Below, piece by piece: positions 1,134-61,941 of a stretch of 64,000 nt of DNA (the stretch's first letter is position 1; every line of letters starts with the position of its first letter). This DNA is from Favolaschia claudopus. Lineage: Eukaryota > Basidiomycota > Agaricomycetes > Agaricales > Mycenaceae. The position numbers and the translations under genes were made by a program. The notes under the pieces were generated by a model, which did no database searches, was not told the DNA's origin, and saw only the letters and a list, made by a program, of their open reading frames with translations. Location: positions 1,364,001 to 1,428,000 of the forward strand of contig JAWWNJ010000018.1 of the NCBI GenBank assembly GCA_037176885.1. The letters run 5' to 3'.

Positions 1134-1353
1134 CTGGATGGTCTGGCGGACCAAGGGGATTGGCAAAAGGTGATCTCATCAGTCACATGTCTCCTCATTC
1201 TCTTCGTCTCGCCCACCTCCGCACATCGCGCTTTTGGCGCGGCGACTCCGTCTCTTTGAGACTTTCCCTTGTCCAGTCCCCCTCCATGACCCTGAGTCTT
1301 GTCCCCTGCTACTAGTCTTCTCCCCCCGTCGCTGTCATCCCTCTTTTCTCGTG
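1134..1353 (+). repeat. Split direct repeat A1
   Basis: 220 bp nearly identical to 3845–4064, at a constant offset of 2,711 bp. It starts with CTGGATGGTCTGG and overlaps the start of the RT reading frame. The pair defines the left terminus of the Ngaro-like element. Confidence 0.85.
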
Positions 1354-1427
1354 TTTTTCTCCGCCTTTCTTTTGGGTGCTCACGCCGCTCTCTCGTCTTC
1401 TGCCCCACCTTCGGCTGGTCGACCTCG

Positions 1428-3470
1428 ATGCCTTCTCTTCGGCCCCTCCCCAGACTTATCAATGTTGATGGTTTCTTGCGCTGGGGGACCCCTGACCGGG
1501 GAGCATGGACTCCTCCAAACGATGGTAGAATCTTGATGATTGCTGGGGCTCCAGTGCGTACACAGATCTGTTGGGGCCACAACCGCGTTGGGGGTTGCTG
1601 GGATGGTCGACGTCGATGTCCTCGTCGCCATGTCTGCTCTCATTGTGGAGAGCGTGCCCATATCGCACCTTCATGCCCTCGTCGTATGTCAACGCCCCCA
1701 GATGTGGCTCGGCCGATTCCGCCTCAGGAAAATCCCCCTGCTGGCGTGTTAGTGAAGCCGGGTGAGCGAGGGGGAGATGCTTCTGGCTCTCCTCGCTCGG
1801 AATCGAGCAGGGAAGTCTTGTCTCCCCCATCATCTGCCAAAATTGTGGAATCTGACCATGCTCCCACTTTTGAGGTGCCACCACCACCACTGCTTGCTCC
1901 AGCACGCCCTAATACAGACCTCCTCTTTCCGCTCACGACTCCTCATTCAAAGTCAATGCCGCCCTCAAAGCTGCGCCCCGAGGCTTGGGCGCACGCCCTC
2001 ATTGATTACCCAGATCGGGTGTTCGCTGAGACCCTCGTCTCTGCCATCCGCCATGGTGTCCTTCTAGGTGTAGATCCTGCACGTATGCCTCCTCCCTCCT
2101 CCTCTGCCCCTGCCGCTCTTCCTTCTGCACTTGCATTTCCCGAGACAGTAGATAAAGACATTGCTCACGAGATTTCTCTGGGGCGTATTGTCGATATCAC
2201 AGACTCTGCTGTGAAGCCTGTCCTGTCCCCGCTGGGCTCCGTGCCCAAGAAATATAGGGAGAAGCGTCGTCGTATCCATCATCTCTCGTACCCTCCTGGC
2301 TCATCCGTCAACGACGCTATCCCAGCGGAGTTTGGCCATCTGGTGTATGAGGCTGTCATGGGGGCGATTGAGTGCATCCGGCAGGCTGGCGAACGGTCTT
2401 TCCTCTACAAGGCAGACCTTGAGGCGGCCTTTAGGCATATTCCCATTCACCCTGATCATATACACCTGATGGGCTTTGAGTGGTTAAAGCGTCTATTCCT
2501 CGACATCTTCCTGCCCTTTGGGGTTCGTACGGGACCCCGCATCTACAATTACTTTGCGGAGGCCCATCACTGGGTCCTCCTCTCTCGGGATGAGGTCATG
2601 GCACTTATTCAGCACTACCTAGATGATTGGCTCAATGTCACCCCCGCTTCCAGGGGTGTGGAGTATGCTCGTCATGGTCGTGCTGTCTTCCGGGCGGTTG
2701 CGGAGGAGCTAGGCTTCTCAATCTCCAGCGACAAGGAGGAGGGTCCGACCCACTGCCTTGAGTTCCTTGGCATTGAGCTGGACACCATTGCTATGCAGGC
2801 TCGTCTGCCCAAAGATAAGCTTGCTCGCCTCCTTGTCTTTCTGGATGGGTGCCTGTCTCGTCGGACTGCCAGCTACCATGACCTAGAGAAACTCTGTGGC
2901 CATCTCGTCTTTGCTCAGTCAGTGATTCCCGTTGGACGCTTCTTCACCCGCCGTATCCGGGACTTCATGCGCCGCCTTTCACTTCTCCCCCGTCACCAGC
3001 GCCGCCGTCTCCCTTCCTCTGCTCGACTCGATATTGCGTGGTGGAACACCTTCCTCCCGTCTTTCAATGGTATTTTTGCCATTGGACCCCCGCGTCCCAC
3101 CATCGAGATCTTCACGGATGCTAGTGGTAAGCTGGGTTTGGGTGGTTACTGGGGAGGTGGTGACCTTTTCTTCACTGAACCTGTCCCGGTGAAGTATGAA
3201 CGCCATCCAATCCATTGGAAGGAGATGCGTGCTGTACTACGGGCAGCGGAGGACTGGGGTCACTGTTGGGCTGGGTTGGAGGTTATCTTTCGTATTGATA
3301 ACGAGGCCATCTCTACCTGTCTGCAGTCTGGCTCTATTGATCATCCTCCTACCCAAGCGCTTTTCCGCCAGTTCGCTCTCCTTGCCGTTCAGAAGGACTT
3401 CACTTTCCGCCCTGTCTGGATCCCAACAGACGAAAATTCCGTAGCAGATGCCCTTTCGAGGTTCCGGTGA
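1428..3470 (+). CDS. Reverse transcriptase–RNase H protein of Ngaro-like element
   Basis: The frame is open from about 1299 with no ATG; the first in-frame ATG is at 1428, giving about 680 aa. An N-terminal Cys/His cluster (CWGH..., CPRRHVCSHCGERAH, C) resembles a gag-type zinc-binding motif. The RT core follows: a KK...RRRIHH segment, KADLEAAFRHIPIHP (motif A) and HYLDDWL (catalytic YxDD, near 2616–2636). A DIRS-type RNase H domain is seen as IFTDASGKLGLGG, HWKEMRAVL, RIDNEAI and ENSVADALSR, so all four acidic positions appear present. The frame ends at 3470 without internal stops. It lies between A1 and B1 of the element. What is missing is the tyrosine recombinase normally downstream. The family assignment is solid; the exact start is uncertain. 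Confidence 0.85.
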   Translation: MPSLRPLPRLINVDGFLRWGTPDRGAWTPPNDGRILMIAGAPVRTQICWGHNRVGGCWDGRRRCPRRHVCSHCGERAHIAPSCPRRMSTPPDVARPIPPQENPPAGVLVKPGERGGDASGSPRSESSREVLSPPSSAKIVESDHAPTFEVPPPPLLAPARPNTDLLFPLTTPHSKSMPPSKLRPEAWAHALIDYPDRVFAETLVSAIRHGVLLGVDPARMPPPSSSAPAALPSALAFPETVDKDIAHEISLGRIVDITDSAVKPVLSPLGSVPKKYREKRRRIHHLSYPPGSSVNDAIPAEFGHLVYEAVMGAIECIRQAGERSFLYKADLEAAFRHIPIHPDHIHLMGFEWLKRLFLDIFLPFGVRTGPRIYNYFAEAHHWVLLSRDEVMALIQHYLDDWLNVTPASRGVEYARHGRAVFRAVAEELGFSISSDKEEGPTHCLEFLGIELDTIAMQARLPKDKLARLLVFLDGCLSRRTASYHDLEKLCGHLVFAQSVIPVGRFFTRRIRDFMRRLSLLPRHQRRRLPSSARLDIAWWNTFLPSFNGIFAIGPPRPTIEIFTDASGKLGLGGYWGGGDLFFTEPVPVKYERHPIHWKEMRAVLRAAEDWGHCWAGLEVIFRIDNEAISTCLQSGSIDHPPTQALFRQFALLAVQKDFTFRPVWIPTDENSVADALSRFR

Positions 3471-38361: not shown

Positions 38362-39515
38362 CCTCGCCTGTAAGTTTTGAGTCAATAACAACACCGATCC
38401 ACTTGACTGTTTCCGACGGGTGGATGGTGACCCCGTTAAAGGTGACGCAGTAGCTCGAGAGGTCTTCCCGGCCAGGCGAGTGGTGCAAGAGCTCGGTTTC
38501 GGACTCTTCAAAGGTAGCTTCGTCGTCGTCGGACCAGGAATTGGAAACGGAAGCGGCCTTGTTGAGAACTCCGACATTCTGGAATGCTGAACGGCTGGCC
38601 GTGCTGAAATTCGTGTCATCAACAAACCCGTACTTCCAACCAATTGAGACCCCAATTTTCTCTAGGCGACGCAGTAAGCGGTTGATGACTAAGTAGAAGG
38701 AAAATAATCACAGACAGAGCAGAGCCCTGCGGATCAACACAGCGAAAAGTGACGGTGCGAACACCATCAATGACCACCGTGACGAGGTGATGGTGAAGGA
38801 ACGACGCAACCCAGAGAATGAGCTGGCGAGAGAAGCCTAGGGATGCCAGCTCTTGGACGACCACGCGGTGCGATACACGGTTGAATGCCCCTTTGAGATC
38901 GTAGAAGAGGGTAGATACAGTGTTTCCGGCGTCGAGCTGAGCTCGGACACGATGAATGTAACCGTCGACGGCTTGGAGGGTGTTGTGTCCAGGGCGGCCA
39001 CCGTATTGTGCATCCTCGATGAACCCAAGAGTTTCCGCTTCAAATGCGAGACGGTCAGCAACGAGACGCTCCAGAGGTTTAGCAAGAATGTGCTCAAATT
39101 TCTCCACCGGTCGCCACGCCTTTGGCGATGTCTTGTCTTTCTTGCCTTGCTTATGAACCGGAGTCGCAACATTGGCTTTGTACGGCGTGGGCTTTGCACC
39201 TAGTGCCACGGAAGACTTGAAGACGGCGCGGATCCATTCCCGTGTGACCAGCGATATTTCACCACTGGGCATCCGAAACGCAATGATGAGTATTCCCGAG
39301 CGCGCAAAAGACCTCACCAATGGTGCGGGAGAAAAAATTGAGCAACCGCTCAGATCTCCGCAGTAATGGATACCAGGTGTGACCTCTAAGCGACCTAGAA
39401 GACTATTGTCCTGGCACATTGCTAGGTCGCTGGGATCTTCCATCTGAGACTGTTCGTTGTAGAGATCTAAGCAGTTCAATAGCGACCTGGGTCGCTCGCA
39501 CAAAATATGTGGCAT
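38362..39515 (-). pseudogene. LINE reverse transcriptase relic
   Basis: Minus-strand RT motifs: TPVHKQGKKDKTSPKAWRPV (finger region), ERLVADRLAFEAETLGFIED, NTVSTLFYDLKGAFNRVSHR (motif A with Asp), DPQGSALSVIIF (motif B, garbled before PQG) and, after a frameshift, KYGFVDDTNF (motif C, VDD). The 5' part and endonuclease are not seen, and the 3' end is cut by the element at 37641–38361. It could be the ORF2 type that the ORF1-only LINE at 4823 lacks, but that link is unproven. Confidence 0.7.
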
Positions 39516-40651
39516 TGAGGAAAAGGGAGAAACGGAGTAAGTTACTGGTAGAAGTTGGGTAGAAGAATATGTTTTGAATCGCTCATATGGTGTTCAAATA
39601 TTTGCCGGCGCTGTTAGAATATCCAGTTGGCGGTGCAACTTGTTGCAGTCTTGTCGTTGGGATGGCGAGTGTGCGGAACTGGAGAAGTCTGCCAAAAGTG
39701 TAGGAAGTGATGGTCAGCGTACAAGACGAGTCGACATAGTTAGTAGTGCCTATTGCACGGAGCATCCGATGCATTTAGCTCGCCTTTGCTCACCGCCGCG
39801 GCACACACAAATACTGCACCTCTTACTGGTGAGAGTCCCTCCTCAGAGTTTCGAGCAGCGTCGTTGGCGCCCGCAATAAACAGCTGTATCAATCCACGAT
39901 CCCGCAGCATGTCTCGCTTGTGGGTTTCCTGCGCAAAATTATAATATTAATACCTCCGATTCCACCTCGCGCACGCGTCGTAGAAGGATCGAAGGGTGTT
40001 GTCGCATTTTTTTCCCTGTTGTTTCCATGCCCGTTCGCGTCGCCGTTTGTGCACTATGTTGTACGACTGAGTGGTGAACAGAACACTTGCTCGCCTTCTC
40101 CGTACGCTCCGCAATAAGATATCACGGACTGACCGAGGTCTGGAAGATTGAAGCATTGCCACTTCTGAGAATGAGGTAAATGTCCTTGGAATCTGAATAG
40201 CCTTTGAGTAGCCGGATGGAGTAGCATTAGACTGGCTTCAAGTCCAGGCATGGGCTCTGGTGTAGGACTTGAGTTTTTGCATTATTTTGTCTTCGAGAGC
40301 GCCGCGACCCCGATTTTATTCTCCCTTCACAAGTCCAAAGGGTCCCGACATGCGGAGCAGTTCAGACGGAGAGACCTGACCTCAAATTTAAACCGGTATG
40401 AACGAAAATCGAAAACGAAAACGCGGCTAGCTGATAATGATCAGGCGGCCTTCCAGGCCATCAAGTCCATCAATTGCCAGCATTCAGAAACGAAAATGAT
40501 CGGGCAAAGAAGCCGAGAGGATTGGATTGATGTCACAGTCACAGTATATCAATGTACGTGGTCTATTGTGTCATCGGCCGCTTACCGAACGCGTCCGAGT
40601 GGCTGTACCAGGTCACGCACACGGCGTGTCTTAGCACTTAATTGAAGAGTG
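39516..40651. other. Non-coding interval
   Basis: No gene or repeat that I can support. Confidence 0.3.
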
Positions 40652-42679: not shown

Positions 42680-44007
42680 CTTTAATGTCCCCGGGTATTC
42701 CTTTTCTGTCCCGGCGATCATATTTCTGTCCTTCTGATCAGGCAGCTATGTCCACGGCACCAATGATTCTGGTCCCTCTGCTCAGAGATTTCTGTCCCTT
42801 TGCTCAAACAAATGAAGCTGCTTGTTATAATTATTCAGTCCACAGTATAAGAAATTACAGTCCTTTTCCTAAGCGATTTACGTCCTCAGGTCATCACTTT
42901 CTCGTCCGGCCATCATTTGTTTTCGGTCCGGCCGACAAGCACTTTCTGTCCGATCTTTATGGATCTCACCAAGGGTCCTACCAAACCTTCTGATGTTGTA
43001 TACCTTCATGATCCATTTTTGAAGCAGATTCCAGGAAAAATGTTTCTGAGGCCATATCTCAAAATCTTAGTGCTGTACAGCGCAAACAAGCAGAGTGTCC
43101 CAATTAGGAAAACTCAGTGTTCAGCCATTTCGATTCTCGCTATAGCTCGCTATATTGAAGAATCCATTGCTTGGAAGTAGTAAAAGTGTCCAAAGCCTTG
43201 CATCTGAGACCCATAGCTGTCAGCTCAGGGTATGTGGCACATATTTTCAACATGTTATCCCGGCCATGAGCAAAATCAACCGCGGGAAGACCTTTCTCCA
43301 TCTTTTATCTGCAATTTATCGAGTTCTCAGCACGGCTTCAATTCCCTCAAATAAGGCTTTACAGGGCCCTACGCAGTGGCATATGAGTCATTCCATGCCG
43401 TCGGCATGTACGAATTCAAGCGGAAAAGTTGTGAAAAATTGCGAACTGACACTAACTTGGACTTGTTTTGTGCATCACTCGAAGGCAACCAGAAATGAAG
43501 CCATTGTTGCACACATATACTAGCACGTCTTCGCCTATCTAGCTACAGTGCCAGATAATACATTAGTAGGGAGGTAAGTGTGATGGGGCTGCAAGGATCA
43601 TTTGCCGTGACTCCGATGAGCCCGATCAAGACCATATTTCCTGATATGGTCCGATGTTCTGAGGGGAGATTTAATTTTCTAAACTGTCCAGATACTGTAC
43701 CGATCTGTATGGAGGCAACGCTCTGAGGTGCGTTACGCGCCGTTGCTAGCCTTTTATGGTAATTTGCTGTGCAAAAGCAGTGCAAAATTACCATATATGG
43801 GACGATTTGTAAGCAAAAATGGCGCTGCGTTATGCGTTATGTTGCTACCATACATATCGGTACAGTACGCTGGGGACACCTATAGGTAGTCTATATAGGC
43901 TGGGGAAACTTAAATATGCTGTTTCCATAAAGATGGGACAGAAGGACAATACCTGGGACAGAATCATCTTGTCAGGGACAGGAAGACAATGCCCGAGGAC
44001 ATTATAG
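42680..44007. mobile_element. Candidate element with TCTGTCC subterminal repeats
   Basis: Left arm (42680–42960) has at least eight (T)CTGTCC-like units on the plus strand; the right arm (43930–44000) has the inverse GGACAGA units. The outermost TTAATGTCCCCGGGTATT matches inverted ATAATGTCCTCGGGCATT at the right end. Nested MITE A copy at 43695–43865. No gene is credible; a long frame over the repeats is an artefact. Confidence 0.5.
43695..43865. mobile_element. TA-flanked MITE, family A (copy 2)
   Basis: 171 bp, TA at 43693–43694 and 43866–43867. It differs from the copies at 29319 and 57982 at only a few positions. Confidence 0.9.
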
Positions 44008-44024
44008 ACTCACTCGCCCACGCC

Positions 44025-44103
44025 CAAGGGGCGACCACTAAAATAAGAATTGAAATGCACTGGTACTGTGGTCTATTATTTGGTATTTGATCCTGTCATC
44101 GGC
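44025..44103. repeat. Left terminal inverted repeat of P-like element
   Basis: Starts CAAGGGGCGACCACTA directly after CCCACGCC; partner is 49783–49861. The unpaired positions cluster at 26–37 of the repeat. Confidence 0.85.
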
Positions 44104-44259
44104 AAAATCAACGGCGTGTGATCGGCAATCAATTCTGGATGCTTTAATTGCACAACGCGTCAACAACGCGTTCTCAACGTGTTTTCCGTGTGTTTTGCGC
44201 ATGTTGGGAGCTTGAGCTCACCTTTTCTCTCTTACCTTCGAGTCTCTCCCCTCTGCAGT

Positions 44260-44855
44260 ATGGATGTGAAACAAGAGGACAGAGAGAAGGCTCGAGAAGC
44301 TTCAATCAAAGCCGAACAAATCATGGCAGCGAGCCCGGTCCGGAAAAAACGTGCCGCAGCACTCACCTCAAGCATGAGAACCTCGATGTAAATATAAATT
44401 CAACGCTAAATGAATCTCAAATAATGTCTTGCACAGACCTTTTCAACCGGGGGGAGCTTTTGATTCACAAACTGATTCTCAGGAGTGGTTAGAGGGGCTG
44501 TATGAGCATCCCGGGCACTCAAGCCCATGTGAGTGGCCTAGTTTAACTCAATCTTAGTTCTAATATGTTACAAGCTCATGCTCCAGAACCCGAATACTCG
44601 CATGACACACTTATCCTTAGAGCTGAGGAAGCTGAGGAGGAACGCGACAACCTTCGGATGGAGTGTCACAATCTTCGGATCGAGCTCGATGTTATCAAAT
44701 CGGAACTTCAAGATACAAAAAAACAGCTAGCCTCCGCTAATTACAATGCTGAACAATGGCAAAAAGCTGCAGTCACTATTTCCAAGGCAGCAGAGAAGGC
44801 TAAAAAGGAGATTGCGAAAGTCAAGGAAGCATTGGATGTAGTTGAATTAGTTTAG
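44260..44855 (+). CDS. Small coiled-coil accessory protein of the P-like element
   Basis: Three exons (44260–44387, 44437–44528, 44575–44855) with 49- and 46-bp GT–AG introns join in frame to 501 nt, 166 aa. The N-terminus is charged (MDVKQEDREKAREASIKAEQ) with a basic SPVRKKR stretch at about residues 26–32 that could be a nuclear signal. The middle is Gly/Ser/Asp-rich (GGAFDSQTDSQEWLEGLYEH). The C-terminal ~85 residues have heptad-like Leu/Ile/Val spacing (AEEERDNLRMECHNLRIELD, then IKSELQDTKKQL), so a coiled coil is likely. I recognise no family. It sits 157 bp inside the left inverted repeat and converges on the transposase gene, their stops overlapping by two bases, so it is plausibly an element-encoded cofactor or regulator; this is inference. 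Confidence 0.75.
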
Positions 44856-47800
44856 TTAATTGGTGTAAAGCTCAAAGTGGGTCTTTTTGATGCATGACGA
44901 TCTGTATCGGACATAGTTGAAGTTGTTGAACCCGTGTCTGCTCTCGGACGCTTGTCTCGAGGAGTCTGAGGCTCTGGCGGGTCTGAGGGAGGGAACAACT
45001 GGTCGCTATCTGGAATCTGATTGTCCTGTCTCCACTGTGTAGTTTGGGCTGCTGCAATTCCAAGTGCTTCTTCTTCAACTCGCCGGATGAACAGCTCTTT
45101 CATGAAAGCCGGGGGAATGGGTTCAACTGTGTCCTTGTGCAAAGAGTGGACCACGATTACATGATACATTGCATTGTATTTCCAGATTGTTGGCTGGTCC
45201 CTTGACACATTATTGTTCGGCAGACATAAGGAACAGAGAATCGGAACATTTGTAGATGGAGATGTCTTAGTAGAAGTTTGAGCCTTTCGATAGTTCATTC
45301 CAGAATAATGATAAGGGCAGCTGGAAAGAATGGAAGGAGGTTTCTTCGGATGATTTGTATTGATCAGTTGGGTGAAACAACCCTCACGACCACAGAATCC
45401 GCATGGCTCTGAGCCAACCGGTTGCAACAGACCTGGTTCAGGGACACCTCGGAGAGACATCAGAATATGCTTTCCAACATGGCTTCGCATCCCATTTAGC
45501 TTTGTCTCTGTGCCACAGAGGAAACAAGAGACTTTATCGCCTGCACGTAACTTGGTTCGTGTTAAATGAGCCGGTACATTCTGAACGATAAGTGATGGGA
45601 TACCTAACATGAATCAGTATTCATCCAAGCCTGATAACAAATTGGCATACCTCGGGCATCTGGGTAAGGAAAAGAGTCTGAGTTCCAAACCTCAGAGAGT
45701 TGCGCAATATTAGCAGCAATCTGTGGGGTTTCCGGTTCTAGCAATTCCCAAGCATCTTTCAAGATCTCATCCAACTGTGCTGTAGGGACACCCCATGTAG
45801 GGCCTGAATCCGAAGTAGTAGACACTGTGACAGATGGAGCAACTGGATGAACAAGAATTCCCGGAATTTCTGCAACAAAGCGACGGCGCGTTTCACGACC
45901 TTGCTTGCTGTCGTCCTCTAAAGATAGAAATTTGCCTGTCCATTCCCAAAGGTCTGCAGGTTTCTTATCAACCTCTGGATTTCGCATTTCCATTAGCTGG
46001 CCAACAATCTGTGCCCTGATCTCCGGAGATTCGAGGTCATTCAAAGATATTGATGTTCGTGTTGATTTATCAGAGTCTGTGCGGATCGCCTTGACCATAA
46101 ATATACCGAGGCTGACTTTGCCTCCTGTATGAACTAAAGAAGCTACTAGATCCCCAGTCTTCAGAAGATTATCGTCATCCATTTCCGTTGCGTCAAAATT
46201 CTCAAACTTCTTACTACGGAAGTCTTCCAGAGCTACACCTCTCACGCGGAGTGTTCGCATAGTTACTTTTTTAGATCTGTTTGAACTCAGAGAGGCGACC
46301 AAAGATGACTTGAGATATCGTTTCCCCTCTACTTCCAAGAATTTAGAAAATGCGGCAGGCTGGGGGTCATCACGATGATCCTCTTCATCAAGTTGTTCAT
46401 CCGGAAAGAATTGATCAAGGTCAAGCCCGAGCGGCATATCTTGATGCTCTTCCTGAGTTCCAAACTCATTCTGAACTGACTGGACTTCCTCCGTAGAAAG
46501 TAGATTCTCTTGATTAAAAGCCCTAGTATTGTCTGAAGGATCACCATTGTTGTGAATTTCTGGAAATAAAGTTGTCTCATCCTCTTCCTCTGATCGTTTG
46601 TCTTCATGTTTTGGGTCGAGTCCCACATATACCCCACAAGGCCGTAGCAAATCAAAACCAGGCTGAGCAAAGATGCGCTCAAAGTCAACTTTTCCGGAGG
46701 GTCCAAAATGGCTTTCAAGGAGATCATTCGCTGCTAGTTCCCCATCTTTCCAGCACTTTGCAATATTTACATTTCCAACACAGGTGTCACCTTTCCAGGA
46801 TCTGGGATTTACGTGGTCCATTCCTAGGGCCCCCGAGAGACTGAGCCGGCGATGACCGCGGTCAAGATCAGGATTTCTTTGAAATGCAGCATTGATCAAG
46901 GCTCCCACTCCCAGTTTTCCTGCTAACTGTTCAATATCAAAATTGCGTGCATGATCTTGAGTGCGGCAATCTGAAAACACTAGCTCTAGCCGGTCTGTGC
47001 CTTCCAGTATAATGTAGAACCTCAAGTTTGGATTGATGATCTGCATTTTAGCAATTGTGAATATGATATTCTTTATTGTCGCTTGTGAATCTGCATAAAG
47101 GGGACCAGTGAAACAGAAAGACCCGTGCTTGATCTGCAACGCAGCGGAAAGGAATGCATATGTCGACAAAGATGTAACCTGTTCAGAGAGACTCATCTCC
47201 ACAGTGATGAAGGGGACCACAAAGTAGCTGAGCACTTTTGAAAAAAATACAACACTTTTTCGCATCTTGGCTTCACTTGTATGGGGAGGTATAACAAGAC
47301 CGTCAAGTTTTCGAAGTTGTTGAATCAGTGATACTGCCTTCGGAACATTTTGCTTGTCAGCTGGATCTAACAATTGCTTTGCAGCTTCGAGTGTGACCTC
47401 TGGTAGTGCAGATAAATGCTGTACAATGTCCAGGGGTTGAATCAATGATTCTCCAATCATGATTCCAGCCAGATTCCGTAGTAAGGTTGCATCCCCTGCA
47501 AAGAAGTAAGAGGACATCCTATAACAGAACGAAAGATAAAAGACTCGTACGTTTGAAAATGTGTTTGGGATCACAGGTTGAGAGCTGCCCATTTTTTGAA
47601 GTAAATCGATTTATCCCCAATAGAGGGCAGATAATCTTGCCGAGTGCAGAGTTTGGATCAGTTTCTTTGACCATGCATATTATATGCTTGGCAAGTCGAT
47701 AAGTCGAGTCTCCATCGCTTGCAAGTGCATCAATCGGGCCATGCAAAATCTTTCCTTGTGGATGAGTTTCCCAGACATCAAGAATGACCTGCATCCATTT

Positions 47801-49506
47801 GGCAAGCTGTTCCCCAGTCTCTGTTTTATCTGAAGGGGAAACCACAATTGGCACTGGAGTGTAGTGATCATCTCTGGCATAAGGTGCAATAGCAACCACC
47901 GTAGCGTCAGTTCCAAAACATACTCTGTCTGGATCATCTTTGTCCTTTTGAAGGGCAGTCCGCACACTTTCGACAGAATCAAGAGTATCAACAGCTGTAT
48001 TGACTCTGTGTGAATGTTCACGACATAGGCCAAGAATAGCGTTGCGAATAGGACAGTAGCGGCACTTGGGTTCAAGAGCGACACCATCAAACATGACAAC
48101 ATTTCCCGGAAGAGTCTGACCTGGAATGACCTGAGGGGGCGGCTTGATTTCTGGATCCAAGAAGCTTGAGATATTGTCATAGATTTCTTGCTGCAGAGGA
48201 ACCCCAATAGATGGCACAAGTTTTGGTACCTTGGCATGTCTCCGGATAGTTGAGACTGAAGCAAGTCCAAAAGCTTTTTGAAGAGCATAGAGAAGACGTG
48301 GTCCGCCAATGGCTTTGGCAAGAAATGATAAATCTAAATCCCGAGCACTAAAACCACCTCGAGGGCTATAAAGGTGATGCATGCAATCCACTATTGCTTT
48401 AGCAATTGCCCGAGGCCCTGCACCGTTCTTTGCCTTCACTGTGAGCAAGCGACGAAGACCAGGGACATCATTGGTAGCTAGAAGCATCATAATTCTTCGA
48501 TATTCGCTAATCTTCATACGAGCAGCTTTCGTTGATCTTCTCGAATTATTTAGCTATCAGAGGTTATTAGCCAGATCCAGTGTCCGATATAAAGATGTAC
48601 TCACCTGGGTCCTCAGATCCTTTTGTGACTTGGCCATTGATTTCATAATCTTGAGTTGTTGCGCTGCGCTCAGATATTCCCATGGTGTGTGCGGCAGACT
48701 CTCAGTAGCTGAATCTATAAATCTGAGAAACCTGGATGATGAAGGTAAAGCTTGACATGGGATGCAGGGAAGACCAGATTCAGCCGGAACTTGGGTAAGA
48801 CAGTTTTCTGCACGAAATTGCATTGTGTTATCTGTGCCAAAACCTATAGGTTCCCAGCCAAGAGAATGAACCCCATGTTGGAGATACGGATAAGTCATCC
48901 AATGTGATCCTACAGTCCAATTTATCGCAACACCTGGGCAAGTTTTTTTCCTGGGCAGTGGAGTTGAAGATCTAGGGGTCTCAATTTGGAGCGGTCTATT
49001 CTGGTGTTGCCCGAGTTGTGCCAAGCCTGCTGTAATATAGCCAAGGGACTCTTGCCGCACATGAGCACGATTAAAATTCGGCTGAGCTGTAGAGCTGTTC
49101 CCAGGCTGAATAAAATTTCATCTCAGCATTTATCTACAGTGTAGAAAATACGAACTTTACTCACTGATAAAATCGGGTTTCCTGGGATTGCAGACCGAGG
49201 CACCAAGGTTTGACTCTAAAGGGAACATTGAGACAAGTTTCAGAGCAAAAAGAAATTATAATGACACACTCTCAGCTTTCTCCTGGCTTCACTCTTGCAG
49301 ACCTCGTTGTTTCGATGCAAGAGAAGATTGTATCTGTTTGCCGAGACTGTCATCTTTATCTGCGTGCCACAAAGATCACAAATAGCATAGTGAATCTTGC
49401 TTTCCGAGTCAATTCGGGTGGTAATTGACCCATAGGGCTCCTCAAAATCTATAGTTACAGGTTCAGTGAGTGGCTTAGCCTTCTTCTTGCTCGGACGGGG
49501 GGACAT
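44852..49506 (-). CDS. P/THAP9-like transposase with terminal zinc fingers
   Basis: Six exons (49270–49506, 49165–49215, 48605–49105, 47551–48553, 45651–47495, 44852–45603) with GT–AG introns of 47–59 bp join without a stop to 4,389 nt, 1,462 aa. The first in-frame ATG is at 49506. A C2HC finger lies at C43-C46-H64-C70. The catalytic region shows MFDGVALEP (D419), ASDGDS (D543), TCDPKHIFKR (D591) and EGTDRLELVF (E768); the last two resemble the CDP-H-LK-R and TSQDRLE-F segments of P-element/THAP9 RNase H-like transposases. The C-terminus has CFLC...H...H (1239–1258), CGFC (1280–1283) and CSLC with His pairs (from 1336). Residues 900–970 are acidic. An animal P transposase has an N-terminal THAP finger; here it is replaced. 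The agaricomycete family is common but I know no accepted name. Catalytic residue choice is inference. Confidence 0.8.
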
Positions 49507-49782
49507 GGTAGAACTGAAGACCGACCACACCTTCACGCGCCTTTAAATCTGATAAATCAGTTCAGGAACCACTAGCTACAGCTTCTAGTTTTTGATTGAT
49601 TGCGGATGTCTTAGTACTCAATTGCAATAGCTGAATGACCCCCAACCTATCAGGTTTCTTGCCTTGACAATGTATATACTCTAGCATTGCAACGGCGCGC
49701 AGAATTAATCAAGCAGACGCGTCTCAATCGCGTTCGCGAAACATGTTAACTGATTGATGGCCGCAGACTGATGTTGATGCGA

Positions 49783-49861
49783 GCCGTTGACATCATCAAA
49801 AACCAAACAGTAGACCACAGTACCTCCGCATTTGGCTTTTAATTCTAGTGGTCGCCCCCTG
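49783..49861. repeat. Right terminal inverted repeat of P-like element
   Basis: Reverse complement starts CAGGGGGCGACCACTA; followed by the direct repeat CCCACGCC at 49862–49869. About 277 bp separate it from the transposase ATG, presumably holding its promoter. Confidence 0.85.
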
Positions 49862-49964
49862 CCCACGCCTCCCCCAGTCTGCCATTGCCAAATAGGGAAA
49901 TACTTACCAAATGTAGTAATGGGCGGGAGACCTAGCAGTGGACGTATCCTGCCAATTCGTACCT

Positions 49965-55561: not shown

Positions 55562-55729
55562 ACTAGCTGTGGGCCCGTGCTTCGCCCGCGTTGGGCTGCT
55601 GAGTTACTGGTGTCAGAACCATTACCTTGCTTCAACTAACAAGCATGCTGTAATACTGCATAGCCTTGAGTCATAAGTCAGCTAGTGACTTAGTCCAACA
55701 TGTTTGGATCCGGTCCCAAATTAACGGAC
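55562..55729 (+). repeat. Dispersed repeat with ACTAGCTGTGGGCCCG head (copy 2)
   Basis: Same 27-bp head; 55612–55715 matches the window start (1–115). It abuts the polypurine tract of the gypsy element, where a 3' LTR would be expected. Confidence 0.55.
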
Positions 55730-57980
55730 TGGTACCCCCCTTGGAATGCCGCGCCTCGACGCATAGATCGCACCTGAGCTGGAGTTGACGAGCGGTCACG
55801 GAAGGGAAGGGAATCGAAGGCAGCAACAGCAATGGAGCGAGGTTTGGAAGGGTATTTGCGGTAGAAAGCAGCGACAGCGTCCGGGGCAAAGACATTAGAG
55901 TGCTTCACCCATTGATCATGGGACGGGTCATAACCCTTCCAGCGAACAAAGTACCATAGACTCCCATAGCGGATCTTGGCATCCAATATCTCCTCGAACT
56001 CCCATTGCTTGTCGCCAGGGACGTCAAGGACTGGTGGCGGCTCTTCGTGTCTGGGGCGAGTAGGGAATGGATCGGCTTCCACAAGCTGAAGTTTCACGAC
56101 GGGGAAGACAGGGTGGAGGGCAGAGTACCGGGGCGGCAGCTCCAGTTTGAAGGCACCATTACCGACGACCTTCAGAACCTTGAAGGGGCCGATACGCCGG
56201 TGGGAGAATTTCACCGAAGAGCTGGTGGTGCAGATATCTGAAGCATCAACCCACACCCGGTCACCAACCTTGATGTCTGGAGCTGGTGTCCGCCGGCGGT
56301 CATAGTACTGCTTGTACTCTGCCTTGGTCTTGACGAGTGCCGCCTTCGCCTCGGAAACCCCTGACGCAATCCGAACGTGGAACTCGTTTACAGCCTCTAA
56401 CCTAGAACGTGCAGCGTGGGGCTCAAAGCCCATCCGTGGAAGCCGACCAGTGTCCGTCATGAACGGTACCTGCTGCGCGGAGGAGTGCATGTGGTTGTTG
56501 TACGCAAACTCCGCTGCAGGTAGCAGCTCATCCCAGTCGTCCTGCTTGTAATTGGTGAAGAGCCGGACGTACTGCTCGAGTTCCTGGTTAACACGCTCCG
56601 TTTGGCCATCGGTCTGCGGGTGGTAGGCCGTAGAAGTGGCTGGGGTGACCCCAACGAGGCGCGGGTGGTAGGCCGTAGAAGTGGCTGGGGTGACCCCAAC
56701 GAGGCGCCAAAGCTCGCGCGTGAACTCTGCGATGAACTGGGTGCCACAATCCGAGATGTACTTCTCTGGCAGGCTATGGTGGCGCCAGACGTTCCGGTAG
56801 TACAGCCGAGCAGCACCAACCGCGTCGATGGTGGTGTGACACTCCATGAAGTGCGCTCTCTTCCCAAGGGCACAGACAGCGACCATGACTGCGTCGTATC
56901 CATGGGCCTCGGGAAGCTCGACAATAAAGTCGACCGACACGGTGTGCCAGCGCTCTTCTGGGATCTCTGTGGGGTGGAGCTCACCAATCGGCAGTTGACG
57001 AAGCGCCTTGGTGCGGCAGCACAAGTCACAAGTCGCGACATACCGACCGACATGGCGCGACAGCTGGGGCCACCGGTAATTCCGAGACACGAGCTCCAGG
57101 GTCTTGAAACGACCGGCATGGCCTGCAACGCGCGTGTCATGGTGCTGCTCCAGGATGCGTCGGCGGAGGTCCTTGTCTCGGGGGACGACAATCTTCCCCC
57201 GGAAGTAAAGGAGCCCACCTTCAATACACCATTCCGAAGACCGGGCAGACCGCACACCTCGGGCCTTGAGGAATTCCTTGGCAGTCAGGGCAATGGGCTC
57301 TTCAAGGTCGGGTTCCCCGGCAAGCGCATCGCGAATGTCGCGCAAGAGGGGAGCCTCAGGGCCAGCAATAACCAGGGCTTCGGTGGCCCGAACATGGAAC
57401 AGCTCGGGTCGAAGCAGGGTAACGTCCTGGTTATTGTCCTGCACTCCATGGTCCGGTCTCCGAGAAAGCGCATCGGGGCGACCCATGAGGCGACCCGGTT
57501 GGTGGTGCAGCGAGAAGTCGAAACGGGAGAGGTAGAGAGACCACCGAGCTTGGCGACGGTTGAGCTTCTGGGCCTTCCGGAAATGTTCCAGGTTTTTGTG
57601 GTCCGTCCAGATCTCAACCCAGTGCTGCGCGCCCTCAAGGAAGTGTAGCCACTCCTCAAGGGCTCGCACGATCGCGAGCATCTCCTTGTCGTGAATCTCG
57701 TAATTCCGCTGCACCTCGTTCAGGCTCTTGGAGTAGAACGCAACCGGATGCCACTTGCCATCGTCACCCTGCTGGGAGAGGACGGCACCGGTGGCATAGG
57801 CAGAGCTGTCAGCCTCGAGCCGGTACGGGCGTTCGGGGTTCGGGAGAACCAGAACCGGGTCCCGAGTCACCCGCCGCTTGAGCTCGTCAAAGGCAGCTTG
57901 CTCTTCAGGCCCCCAGGTCCAGGCAATGCCCTTCTTGGTGAGTCTGAAGAGGGCTTGAGCAACCGCAATGAACCGGTAGT
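55690..57980 (-). pseudogene. Gypsy pol part 2: RNase H, integrase, chromodomain
   Basis: The frame is open across RNase H ([51 protein letters not shown]), the integrase zinc domain ([13 protein letters not shown]...CDLCCRTK), the catalytic core ([40 protein letters not shown]) and a chromodomain ([26 protein letters not shown]) to a stop at 55690. A 45-bp tandem duplication (56617–56706) lies between the second Asp and the Glu. The N-terminal end is cut by the MITE at 57982. Known role of the chromodomain in such elements is chromatin targeting. Confidence 0.85.
56617..56706. repeat. 45-bp tandem duplication inside integrase
   Basis: Two identical units (56617–56661, 56662–56706) add the 15 residues [15 protein letters not shown] a second time. 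Without it the Asp–Glu spacing is 35 residues, as in active D,D35E integrases; with it the spacing is 50. Confidence 0.9.
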
Positions 57981-57981
57981 A

Positions 57982-58152
57982 CTGTACCGATCTGTATGGA
58001 GGCAACGCTCTGAGGAGCGTTACGCGCCGTTGCTAGCCTTTTATGGTAATTTGCTGTGCAAAAGCAGTGCAAAATTACTATATATGGGACGATTTGTAAG
58101 CAAAAATGGCCCTGCGTTATGCGTTACGTTGCTACCATACAAATCGGTACAG
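57982..58152. mobile_element. TA-flanked MITE, family A (copy 3) inside gypsy pol
   Basis: 171 bp, same sequence as 29319–29489. TA at 57980–57981 and 58153–58154. Deleting it with one TA joins FLGFTN...[10 protein letters not shown], the conserved RT/RNase H connection of gypsy elements. Confidence 0.9.
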
Positions 58153-59065
58153 TAGAAGTTTGTGAAGCCAAGGAACTGCTGCACATCCTTCTTATTCTCA
58201 GGTGCTGGCCAAGCGGGTCCATCTCGACGTGGTTGTGGGAGATAATCACGCCGAGGTACTCAATAGAGGTCCGCTCAAACTCACACTTCTCAGCTCGAAG
58301 GTAAAGCTTGTTTGCGCGAAGCCTCCGCAGGACCTCTCGGACGATCTCTCGGTGCCGACGGATGTCTGAGTGGGCAATGAGGATATGGTCGAGGTAGACC
58401 ATGACGTCGCCAGAGAGGATAAGATCCTGGAGGATGTCGTTCATCATGGTCTGGAAGGTTGCAGGGGAGTTGGTCAGACCGAAGTACATGACCAGCGGCT
58501 CAAACAGTCTCCGGTTGGTCCGGAACGCTGCCTTCCACTCGTCGCCTTCACGGATTCGAACGTTGTTAAAGCCCCATCGGACATCGAGCTTCGTGAAGTA
58601 CCAGGCTCCCCTGAGTCGGTTGATGAGGTCGTTGATTAAGGGGAGTGGGTAACGATTCTTCACGGTCATAGCGTTTAAAGCTCGATAGTCCTGTACGAAC
58701 CGAAGTCCGCCGTCCTGCTTCTTGACGAAGAAGACGGGTGAGGCCATAGGTGATTTTGACGGTCGAATCCGGCCAGTGCCAAGTCCCTCCTCGATGAAGG
58801 CATCAAGTTCCTTCTGTTCGAGAGGCGAGATTGGGTAGACCTTGCAGTTCGTGGGTTTAGAGTCCGGCAGAGCTCAATGGCATGGTCCCAGGATCGGCGT
58901 TCAGGCAGCGAGTCAAAGGACTCCTTGTTGAAAACATCGTCAAACTCTCGGGCCCATTCGGGAACGTCCGAGCGCGCCGGGGCTGAGTTTTTGGCGTATG
59001 CCTCAGCCAGGCGCTGGGAGACGGTGCTTCCAGCACGGATATCCTCAGAAGGCAGGAACTGGGTG
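58153..59065 (-). pseudogene. Gypsy pol part 1b: reverse transcriptase
   Basis: Minus-strand RT with [40 protein letters not shown] (motif A) and [18 protein letters not shown]. The catalytic motif reads [13 protein letters not shown], so the second Asp of YxDD is His. A small deletion after HNHVEMDP removes about eight residues and shifts the frame before [19 protein letters not shown] frame change near 58675–58860 also separates RT from SVSQRLAEAYAKN...DDVFNKESFDSLPER. Confidence 0.8.
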
Positions 59066-59834
59066 CACTGAGGAAGTAGAACCCCCTGAATTTCCCATAG
59101 CCGGACCATGAATTCCACAATTCATGGGATTATCTAGTGAATTCAGATTCAGGGGGTTGTAACTTCACGTAGCTCATTCACATAATTATGTTAGACCAAT
59201 ATCAACTATGTGAATTTCGCTTGAAAATTGAATGAATGCAGTTGTGTGAAAACTGCTCAAAAAATTCATTCCTGGCTTCCAGGCGAGTCTTTGAAATTCA
59301 CCCATGCACCTCGTGGAATTCATGGAGTTCAAGTTGCCCGGAACACGGTACATGATTCTGGTCATCAGTACTGGTTGTGTTCCTAATGCAGTAACATAGT
59401 CAATTTGGATAGTTTAAGCAATGTAGCTTAATAAGTAGTTGTTAGTGAAGACTGTAAATCTGCAGTATAAGTACCTCAGTACAGATGGAGTGCAACCAAT
59501 ACTTGTAGGTTTGATAGTGGGCAAAGCGAGGAGTGAGTAATAGATTTTTCATGCAGTTTCCATTGTGTTTTCACATACTTTTCAAGTGAATTCCCGGAGC
59601 ATTGGAAGGGAATCCAACACAGTGAAAAAAGTTTTCATTGGAATATGTGGGATATCATTCTAAAACCATGTGAATTAACACCATGGAATGTCCCATTCAC
59701 ATAGTTGGACCCAGTGAAAATATCTCCGTGAAATTCACAACTTCATAGTGAAATTCACAAAGTTTTTCAGTGAATTTCCCATTAAAACCTTGTGAACCGA
59801 CTATGGGAAAGTCAGGGGGTTCGGAAACCACAGT
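59066..59834. mobile_element. CACTA-like MITE inside gypsy pol
   Basis: 769 bp, ends CACTGAGGAAGTAGAACC / GGTTCGGAAACCACAGTG, GTG duplicated at 59063–59065 and 59835–59837. The 3-bp duplication and CACTG ends fit CACTA-type transposition. Removal restores GDRVFYTQFLPSEDIRAG in the host pol frame. Confidence 0.85.
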
Positions 59835-60665
59835 GGTGTAGAACACCCGGTCTCCCGGCTCAAGGGGGTCATCCACTTCATCCGCATCATCCACTTCATC
59901 CACATCATCCTCGTCATCATCCTCGTAGTCCGGGAACAGCTCTGGCAGGTCATCGTATTCATCTTCGCCTAAGTCTATGGCGCAGGTGGATGGAAGGGGA
60001 CCAAGTCGGAGCTGCCGGAGGATCTCAGCGGCCAGGCGGGACTCTCGGCGTGCAGCGCAAGCTTCCAGGCGAACCTCGGTGCGGCACGTAGAGCACTCGC
60101 TGGGGCATCTGCTCATCTTGACCTCTCGGGTGTCCCAGTCGATCTCCGGGTTATGCTTCCGGAGCCAGGAGTAGCCGAGGATGAGCTTCTGCTTCCCAAG
60201 ACGAGTAACAGCGAGCTGCATGCGCTCGGAGCGACCACGATACTGCAGCACGACGTCAGCCACCTCGCGGATCGCACCAGCCTCATTTGGCGAGCCATCC
60301 ACATTGAAAACTGGAATGGGCTGTGCAAAGCGGCGGAGGGGGAGGCCAGACTTAGCTGCGAACTCAGAGTCAATGAAGTCTGAGGTGGCACCACAGTCAA
60401 CGAGACCTTCGAGGGAAAGCTTGGTGGCGTCCTGGACTGCCTGAATCTCAAGGGGGAGATGCAGGGAGTTGGCAGCGGGTGCAGCAGCAACAGTATAGCG
60501 CTGAGGAAGTCTACGTTCCCAAGGCTTTCGCCGGATGCGTGGGGAACGGAGGGGAGCAGGGGGTACGTCTTTCGTTTCGGCAGGTTCAACAGATGTGACA
60601 TTGGCAGACTCATCATACAAACATGCGAAACGATTAGGAGACGCAATCGAGGGCGTACCGCTCAC
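59835..60665 (-). pseudogene. Gypsy pol part 1a: aspartic protease
   Basis: The frame opens in −1 relative to gag without an ATG, overlapping the gag stop by four bases. LSLEGLVDCGATSDFIDSEF holds the protease active-site Asp (DCGAT instead of the usual DSGAT), KLILGYSWLRKHNPEIDW is the second conserved block. A Cys pair (CPSECSTC) and an acidic repeat (DDEDDVDEVDDADEVDD) follow. The frame then runs into the MITE. Confidence 0.8.
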
Positions 60666-61771
60666 TCGTCGCGTGGGAGAAAACCCTGCTCTTCCTCGGC
60701 GGCTACAGACTCCGGCTCAGGGAGCGAGTCGGTGGTGGCAACCCGAGCCACCAGTTCGGAGAGGAGCTCGGACCCAAGCTGACGTATGACCTCGTCAAGG
60801 ACATCAGCGGCTCGGACGTCAGCCGGGGTGAGGCAATCCCGGGCCAGGTGTGGACCGCCGCATCGGTAGCAGCCACGGGGAGGTCCTCTCCCGGAGCGCG
60901 TGCGATCAACGTCCATGGGGACTACCTGCGGAGGAGCAGGAGCTGGCATGGCCCGAGGAGGAGGCGCAGGGACAACAGGGAAGACACCTGCAGGACGTGA
61001 GCGAGCAGCTGGCGGAGCTGAGGGGGCTTTCGGGAGAAGCCCAGCAGCACGAGCCCGCACGTGCGATTCGTACTGGCGGTGCGCTCGGGTCCGCCAAGCC
61101 ATGTAGTCGCGGAGGTCTGGGGGGTCGCTGGACGAGGTGATGGCCGCATTGATGGCAGGGTCAAGGCCAGAGCGGAACTTGGTGACCTTGACCAACGCGT
61201 CAGCAAACCCAGCAAGGTCGAAGAGGTCTTCAAAGTCATCAGTGTACTTGAAGACATCCCGGGAGCCCATATAGTATGCCCTGTTTGTGTAGGGCGTGGT
61301 CCTGCTCGTTCTCCTCGACAAAGCGTGAGCAGAACTCCTTGGTGAAGGCGTCCCAGGTGAGGAAGGGGAAAGGGGTTTTGATGGACATGCGCTCAGCCCA
61401 TTTTTGCGCAGAGTCTTTGGACATAAAGGACATGGTGAAACGTACTGCCTTTTCCTCGGACATCTCGCCACCTTCGACAAACGCCTCCGGAACCAGTCGG
61501 ATGTAAGTCCGAGCTGAGTGAAGGAAGGCCCGGCCAGCCAAGCGGTCGCCGTCAAAGACGAAAGGGGGGTTCGGTCGAAGGACCGTGGGGTGAGGTTGGC
61601 AAAGAGTCCTGGACTCTCGGCCGGAGGCTCTGGAGGAGCGGCAGGGGTCGGAGCAGTAGTAGTGGAAGGATTGGCGGCAGTTTGAAAAAGCTCGACCACA
61701 CGGTCAACAGTCCTCTCGAGCCTATCCATCCGCTCGGCGGCGGCTGCAGCAGCGGCGGCAGAGTCGGTCAT
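60662..61771 (-). pseudogene. Gypsy gag with CCHC zinc knuckle
   Basis: ATG at 61771 begins MTDSAAAAAAAAERMDRLER, coiled-coil-like. The capsid-like core (AGRAFLHSARTYIRLVPEAF, WAERMSIKTPFPFLTWDAFT) is in another frame between about 61565 and 61290, so two compensating frameshifts exist; one lies at a C6 run. The frame then returns (GSRDVFKYTDDFEDLFDLAG) and ends with RGCYRCGGPHLARDC, a CCHC knuckle, and a stop at 60662. Confidence 0.75.
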
Positions 61772-61941
61772 GGTGGGTTCTAGAGAGGGGGAGGAGGGGG
61801 CAAGATTCGCGGTTTGCGCGTCCGAGACAGCAGAGGAGGAGTCCGCCGAAGCGTCTGAAAAATCGCCAAAGCGCGCAATCTTGACCAGTTAATCCCTTGG
61901 AGCCTTTCTTCTGCTGTAAGGGCAACCTTTAGGACCCGAAA

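Follow-up and report, generated by a model that had tools for sequence, protein, structure and literature searches.

What kind of mobile element lies at positions 44025-49861 of the window, by which we mean the whole 64,000-nucleotide stretch analysed on contig C18 of the agaric Favolaschia claudopus (Mycenaceae, Agaricomycetes)? A preliminary description had called this unit a complete and apparently intact two-gene P-like DNA transposon. The unit was examined against the Favolaschia claudopus genome (264.6 Mb, 460 contigs), and we conclude that it very probably is a full-length cut-and-paste DNA transposon of the P superfamily, a group known chiefly from animals, and represents a fungal branch of it. 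The sequence itself, nucleotide and predicted protein, shows the terminal inverted repeats (TIRs), the 8-bp duplications and the empty sites, as well as two open genes and conserved motifs.

Ends, empty sites and genes of the unit

The two arms of the TIR are identical at 63/79 positions, compared with 35 identities or fewer in 10,000 shuffles of one arm, and an exact 8-bp duplication lies on either side of the unit. Both the ~79-bp inverted repeats and the perfect target duplication of the preliminary description were thus borne out. The 501 bp to the left of the element match four places in the genome at full length, the window being one of them. The other three (C130, C158 and C80) are empty sites, at which the two flanks adjoin and CCCACGCC is present once; the junction was read letter by letter for C130 and deduced for C158 and C80 from alignments that overlap by 8 bp. 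Identity over ~1,500 bp per side is 99.6-99.9% for the left flank and 99.1-99.5% for the right. Given three empty sites with flanks this similar, a recent insertion is supported, as had been proposed. The empty sites may be allelic, or they may be further copies of a repeat. A stretch of ~176 bp (window 43692-43868) is itself repeated at no fewer than 36 genome places besides the four full-length flank matches.

Two genes lie between the ends. Gene 2, on the minus strand, has six exons and five GT-AG introns of 47-59 nt and encodes 1,462 aa, and gene 1, on the plus strand, has three exons with GT-AG introns of 49 and 46 nt and encodes 166 aa. The genes are convergent with overlapping stop codons, gene 1 ending at 44855 and gene 2 at 44852. 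Neither frame contains an internal stop, in agreement with the earlier claim that both are open across seven introns. The public gene 2 model (P0001, 1,433 aa) begins and ends at the same positions; an alignment of 1,464 columns with two gaps shows 97.7% identity, so some of its splice sites are set differently. The intact element is possibly autonomous, a reading that fits the open genes.

Relation of the transposase to the P superfamily

Simple sequence searches of Pfam, NCBIfam and PDB were uninformative. When residues 270-900 of the gene 2 product were used as query, 195 proteins were found at E≤10 among 7,993 candidates scored. Among the 120 matches listed, all 91 organism-named proteins were from Agaricomycetes, judged from the names (lineages of family members were looked up for Favolaschia and Exidia only). 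Of these 120 homologues 119 lack a Pfam domain, and those with a name are annotated as hypothetical, uncharacterised or predicted proteins, an oxidoreductase label being added in one case. In the family alignment the catalytic string D419, D543, D591(2)H594, E768 is kept in 74-75 of 75 proteins, and it resembles the P string D230, D303, D339(2)H, E531 given in the available text of PMC8230255, with spacings of 124, 48 and 177 in the fungal family versus 73, 36 and 192 in P. Strand positions in the predicted model agree with the arrangement expected of the P superfamily, in which D lies on beta 1, D on beta 4, [C/D](2)H after beta 5 and E on alpha 4. We propose D543 as the second catalytic aspartate (D2) from its modelled position after beta 4 together with its full conservation.

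The link to P was examined by comparing a profile of 116/120 fungal cores with one of a PDB-verified P core plus 87/120 P proteins; four fungal rows were dropped, as were 33 P rows (21 shorter than 450 aa and 12 by coverage or length). Three collinear local matches were obtained, running from the helix-turn-helix (HTH) through D1, from D(2)H through KQxV, and along the DxxE helix, and the two profiles have D(2)H, [KR]Q[KN]V and DxxExxFxxxR in common. The best score was 41.0, as against 32.0 for the best decoy and 16.2 for the reversed profile, and 0/100 shuffled profiles reached either this score or the sum of the three matches. The second and third matches are weak taken singly (P ~0.01-0.02). 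A global alignment gave Prob 93.1 and E 4.6e-8, to which lesser weight was given since it is forced end to end. In predicted models of homologues, a P-type fold with a helical insertion domain was found, and structural comparison ranked the Drosophila P transposase far ahead of any other match, its lead over Transib, RAG and Hermes being 11 Z units or more in two of these models.

Several observations weigh against this assignment. The structure models are of homologues and not of the window protein; a Foldseek search against PDB gave no match at E≤0.001, with no P row in the best 50 of 223. No Pfam transposase or P model matched the window exons or the sets of five and 31 family members, and the animal P proteins compared carry PF21787, PF21788 or PF21789. 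The fungal family profile (A1) found 0 PDB sequences, and hhalign of A1 against a single P sequence gave Prob 0.6. Run on 120 fungal and 120 reversed sequences, the P profile matched 46 versus 4 at E≤10 (best 0.12); the fungal profile matched 93 of 120 P versus 28 of 120 reversed sequences, the best match (0.012) being a reversed one, and none of these cross-search matches is convincing singly. D2 was left unaligned by hhalign, and the global alignment places D303 elsewhere. The earlier assignment to the P superfamily is supported, with the correction that the link to P is not visible from sequence searches alone. Weak Pfam matches named no transposase and were set aside (Elf1 zinc ribbon at 0.0083 in exon 1; zf_C2HC_14, best 0.00076, in 12/31 and TSCPD, best 0.00033, in 6/31 family members).

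Could the element belong elsewhere? A separate DDE superfamily, sharing with P, hAT and RAG/Transib nothing beyond the general plan of an RNase H fold with a helical insertion, would agree with the lack of Pfam P matches and with a THAP domain and residues S409, F443, D444 and N447 of P that have no recognisable counterpart, but the margin of P over Transib, RAG and Hermes and the motifs shared in collinear order make it improbable. hAT elements also make 8-bp duplications and KDZ elements can, and ends starting with CAGGG resemble hAT ends; a hAT or KDZ element is nevertheless a very remote prospect. No Pfam match to the KDZ transposase was found in the sets of five and 31 family proteins. 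Since THAP lies outside the catalytic string, we class the element, from its predicted protein, within the P superfamily as one of its branches and not as an animal P element. Two adverse outcomes named in advance, an absence of copies with 8-bp duplications and a non-transposase fold, were looked for and neither occurred: short copies carry the duplications and the best fold was that of P. Coordinates are collected in Table 1.

Table 1. Features of the transposon unit, in window positions
Feature	Position	Strand	Basis or remark
Transposon unit, 5,837 bp	44025-49861		two genes between inverted ends
Target site duplication, left, CCCACGCC	44017..44024		same as 49862-49869; single at three empty sites
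Target site duplication, right, CCCACGCC	49862..49869		same as left copy; single at empty sites
Left TIR, 79 nt, 5' CAAGGGGCGACC	44025..44103	+	63/79 identical to right arm
Right TIR, 79 nt, minus-strand start CAGGGGGCGACC	49783..49861	-	arm alignment
Gene 1 exon 1 (166-aa coiled-coil protein)	44260..44387	+	open spliced frame, GT-AG introns, codon-likeness
Gene 1 exon 2	44437..44528	+	spliced frame, codon-likeness, public C187 model
Gene 1 exon 3	44575..44855	+	stop TAG overlaps gene 2 stop; dN/dS with C11 homologue
Gene 2 exon 1	49270..49506	-	start codon, CxxC...H...C motif, no THAP match
Gene 2 exon 2	49165..49215	-	spliced open frame
Gene 2 exon 3	48605..49105	-	spliced open frame
Gene 2 exon 4	47551..48553	-	HTH, RNase H beta strands, D419, D543, D591-PK-H594
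Gene 2 exon 5	45651..47495	-	helical insertion domain, D765, proposed catalytic E768, linker, small beta domain
Gene 2 exon 6	44852..45603	-	Cys/His-rich C-terminus, stop TAA
D419 codon	48086..48088	-	proposed D1 = P D230; D in 74/75; paired with D230 by hhalign
D543 codon	47714..47716	-	proposed D2 = P D303; D in 75/75; right after beta 4 of the model; unplaced by hhalign
D591-P-K-H594 codons, P-superfamily D(2)H motif	47561..47572	-	D and H in 75/75; aligned to D339/H342
D765-R-L-E768 codons	46984..46995	-	= P D528 (GTP contact) and catalytic E531; D and E in 75/75; paired with D528/E531 by hhalign

In the C-terminus of gene 2 (44852-45603) the Cys/His positions are conserved, and the beta domain preceding it has a weak likeness to BAH/SGF29 readers.

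Related copies, gene 1 and activity

The left end of the element matches 24 genome places, the two ends in the window and both ends of several copies being counted, and a 20-bp end pattern with at most one mismatch has 31 matches including the element's own ends (backward control, 0). Sixteen further loci were fetched, of which 11 were scored at both ends, one (C9) was judged by reading, and four with one readable end were left unscored. Exact 8-bp duplications were found in 10 of the 11 short relatives scored; the sole miss was L011, whose end had been placed one base off. Other copies and empty sites, for which the preliminary description had suggested a check, were thus both present. Ten of the scored copies are 314-337 bp long and one, on C120, is 540 bp and by its sequence clearly an internal-deletion derivative. 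The C9 copy (1,581 bp) has CCGTAGAG on either side. On C187 the match is limited to the first 668 bp (99.7%) within the 6.4 kb read. Because the flanks of L011 are those of L012, these two may be allelic; L011/L012, L061/L062 and L074/L075 are pairs of loci sharing flanks or the flanking 8 bp, which suggests that both haplotypes are present in the assembly.

In a DNA search with a 1,854-bp query from the gene 2 core, the window copy alone matched over the whole length, and eleven other loci matched partially at 65-73%. Two P-like loci were read further, on C40 and C103. A gene 2 relative is present on C103, where no TIRs were found, and neither locus had a gene 1 match at E≤1. P-like elements on C40 stand in a near-tandem array (~928795, 935873 and 942751, spacing ~6.9-7.1 kb), and the L078 unit there carries an identical 767-bp stretch at its two ends.

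By a codon-likeness model trained on gene 2 alone, the spliced frame of gene 1 scored 0.090 per codon, exceeding all 168 stop-free runs of at least 90 codons elsewhere in the window. A homologue on C11 has 42% protein identity, with dN 0.35 and dS 0.75 over 90 codons (dN/dS ~0.47). The C187 copy has a public model (P0121, 127 aa) that shares both splice choices and then diverges from the match. Gene 1 relatives lie at 5977-6267 of L079 (C11) and at C23:169139-169358. Matches of exon 3 to Pfam coiled coils (Golgin_A5 at 2.5e-5 and others) were set aside as generic. The 166-aa coiled-coil product would probably be an accessory partner binding the transposase or its DNA.

Gene 1 might instead stand outside the transposition machinery, as a captured passenger or a fortuitous frame. 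The lack of a gene 1 match at the C40 and C103 loci, the homologues on C11 and C23 (7.7 kb read around the former gave no match to gene 2), and a protein search that returned a single homologue, the C187 copy, all point that way, but the codon-likeness, the dN/dS and the splice pattern repeated in the public C187 model oppose it, so we regard this as possible though not favoured. A similar standing is given to an element that is intact in sequence yet dead, through silencing or a subtle missense defect: that the core query matched at whole length in one copy only would agree with it, whereas the open genes, the conserved residues and the near-identical empty sites argue against it. For the P-type transposon that we prefer, transposase subunits would bind the CARGGGGCGACC ends, excise the element using D419/D543/E768 and join it to the target at positions 8 bp apart; the short 314-540-bp copies probably owe their movement to an enzyme of the gene 2 type acting in trans.

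Nearly all other transposon genes in the window had been described as broken. This agrees with the retroelement frames, which were seen in pieces, and the verdict is limited to those frames: Gypsy-type LTR retrotransposon frames at 55690-61888 (minus; RNase H, integrase zinc finger, chromodomain, reverse transcriptase and protease, in several frames) and frames with partial reverse transcriptase (RVT_1) matches at 1296-3470 (plus) and 38619-39593 (minus).

The GTP pocket and known systems

According to the available text of PMC7776569, P transposase is the sole member of the transposase/integrase superfamily with a GTP cofactor, its pocket being formed by D528, K385, K400, V401, S409, F443, D444 and N447. 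D528 and V401 have clear counterparts in the fungal family. The K400 position is N, as it also is in 26/88 P rows, and the S409 position is Q in 96/116 fungal proteins. The FDxxN stretch (F443/D444/N447) has no recognisable fungal counterpart, the mapping being uncertain. Within residues 497-604 of P0005, a D, E, K or N is at least 80% conserved at three positions, D573, K579 and E602. THAP domains are described, in the source passages available, as confined to animals, and no THAP Pfam match was found in exon 1, P0001 or 31 homologues. A two-component P system, in which a fungal P-type transposase would work without THAP and the animal-type GTP cofactor and with gene 1 as second subunit, is put forward as a speculative and rather unlikely proposal. 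A fungal branch with the catalytic core, seemingly without THAP and parts of the pocket, raises the question of when GTP use arose.

The element is not wholly new. The label 'P-Fungi' already appears in the repeat tables, as far as these were available, for Pleurotus ostreatus (10 copies, 46,557 bp, mean ~4.7 kb), Phakopsora pachyrhizi and, at 0.04%, Daphnia magna. This class is known here by label and counts only, and a likeness is the Pleurotus homologue P0072 (Pleurotus pulmonarius). A literature search covering few subscription papers found no paper describing a fungal P group or the present anatomy. The assignment suggests a role for many fungal proteins, mostly without a Pfam domain, and offers 44025-49861 as an intact candidate for a transposition assay.

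Compared with the Drosophila P element (6p5a/6pe2), which has a THAP domain, the window protein has no THAP match and much of the GTP pocket is unrecognisable in it; it also has a Cys-containing insert after D1 and 694 residues after the proposed catalytic E, versus 220 in the 751-aa Drosophila protein. The window element has a second gene and 79-bp TIRs, those of P being 31 bp. Zebrafish Pdre2 and vertebrate THAP9 resemble the window protein in having the D..D..D(2)H..E string and a large insertion (PMC8230255, available text), and zebrafish resembles this genome in its internally deleted copies with 8-bp duplications (PMC7776569, available text); they differ in being animal and THAP-bearing, and a second gene is unmentioned in the portions of those descriptions available. 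Within the same genome, the 5,165-bp C40 element (L078) shares the P-like gene 2, the terminus CAAGGGGCGACC and an 8-bp duplication (ACTGTGGG) and differs in its 212-bp perfect TIRs, its lack of a gene 1 match and a protein identity of 44% over 1,240 columns.
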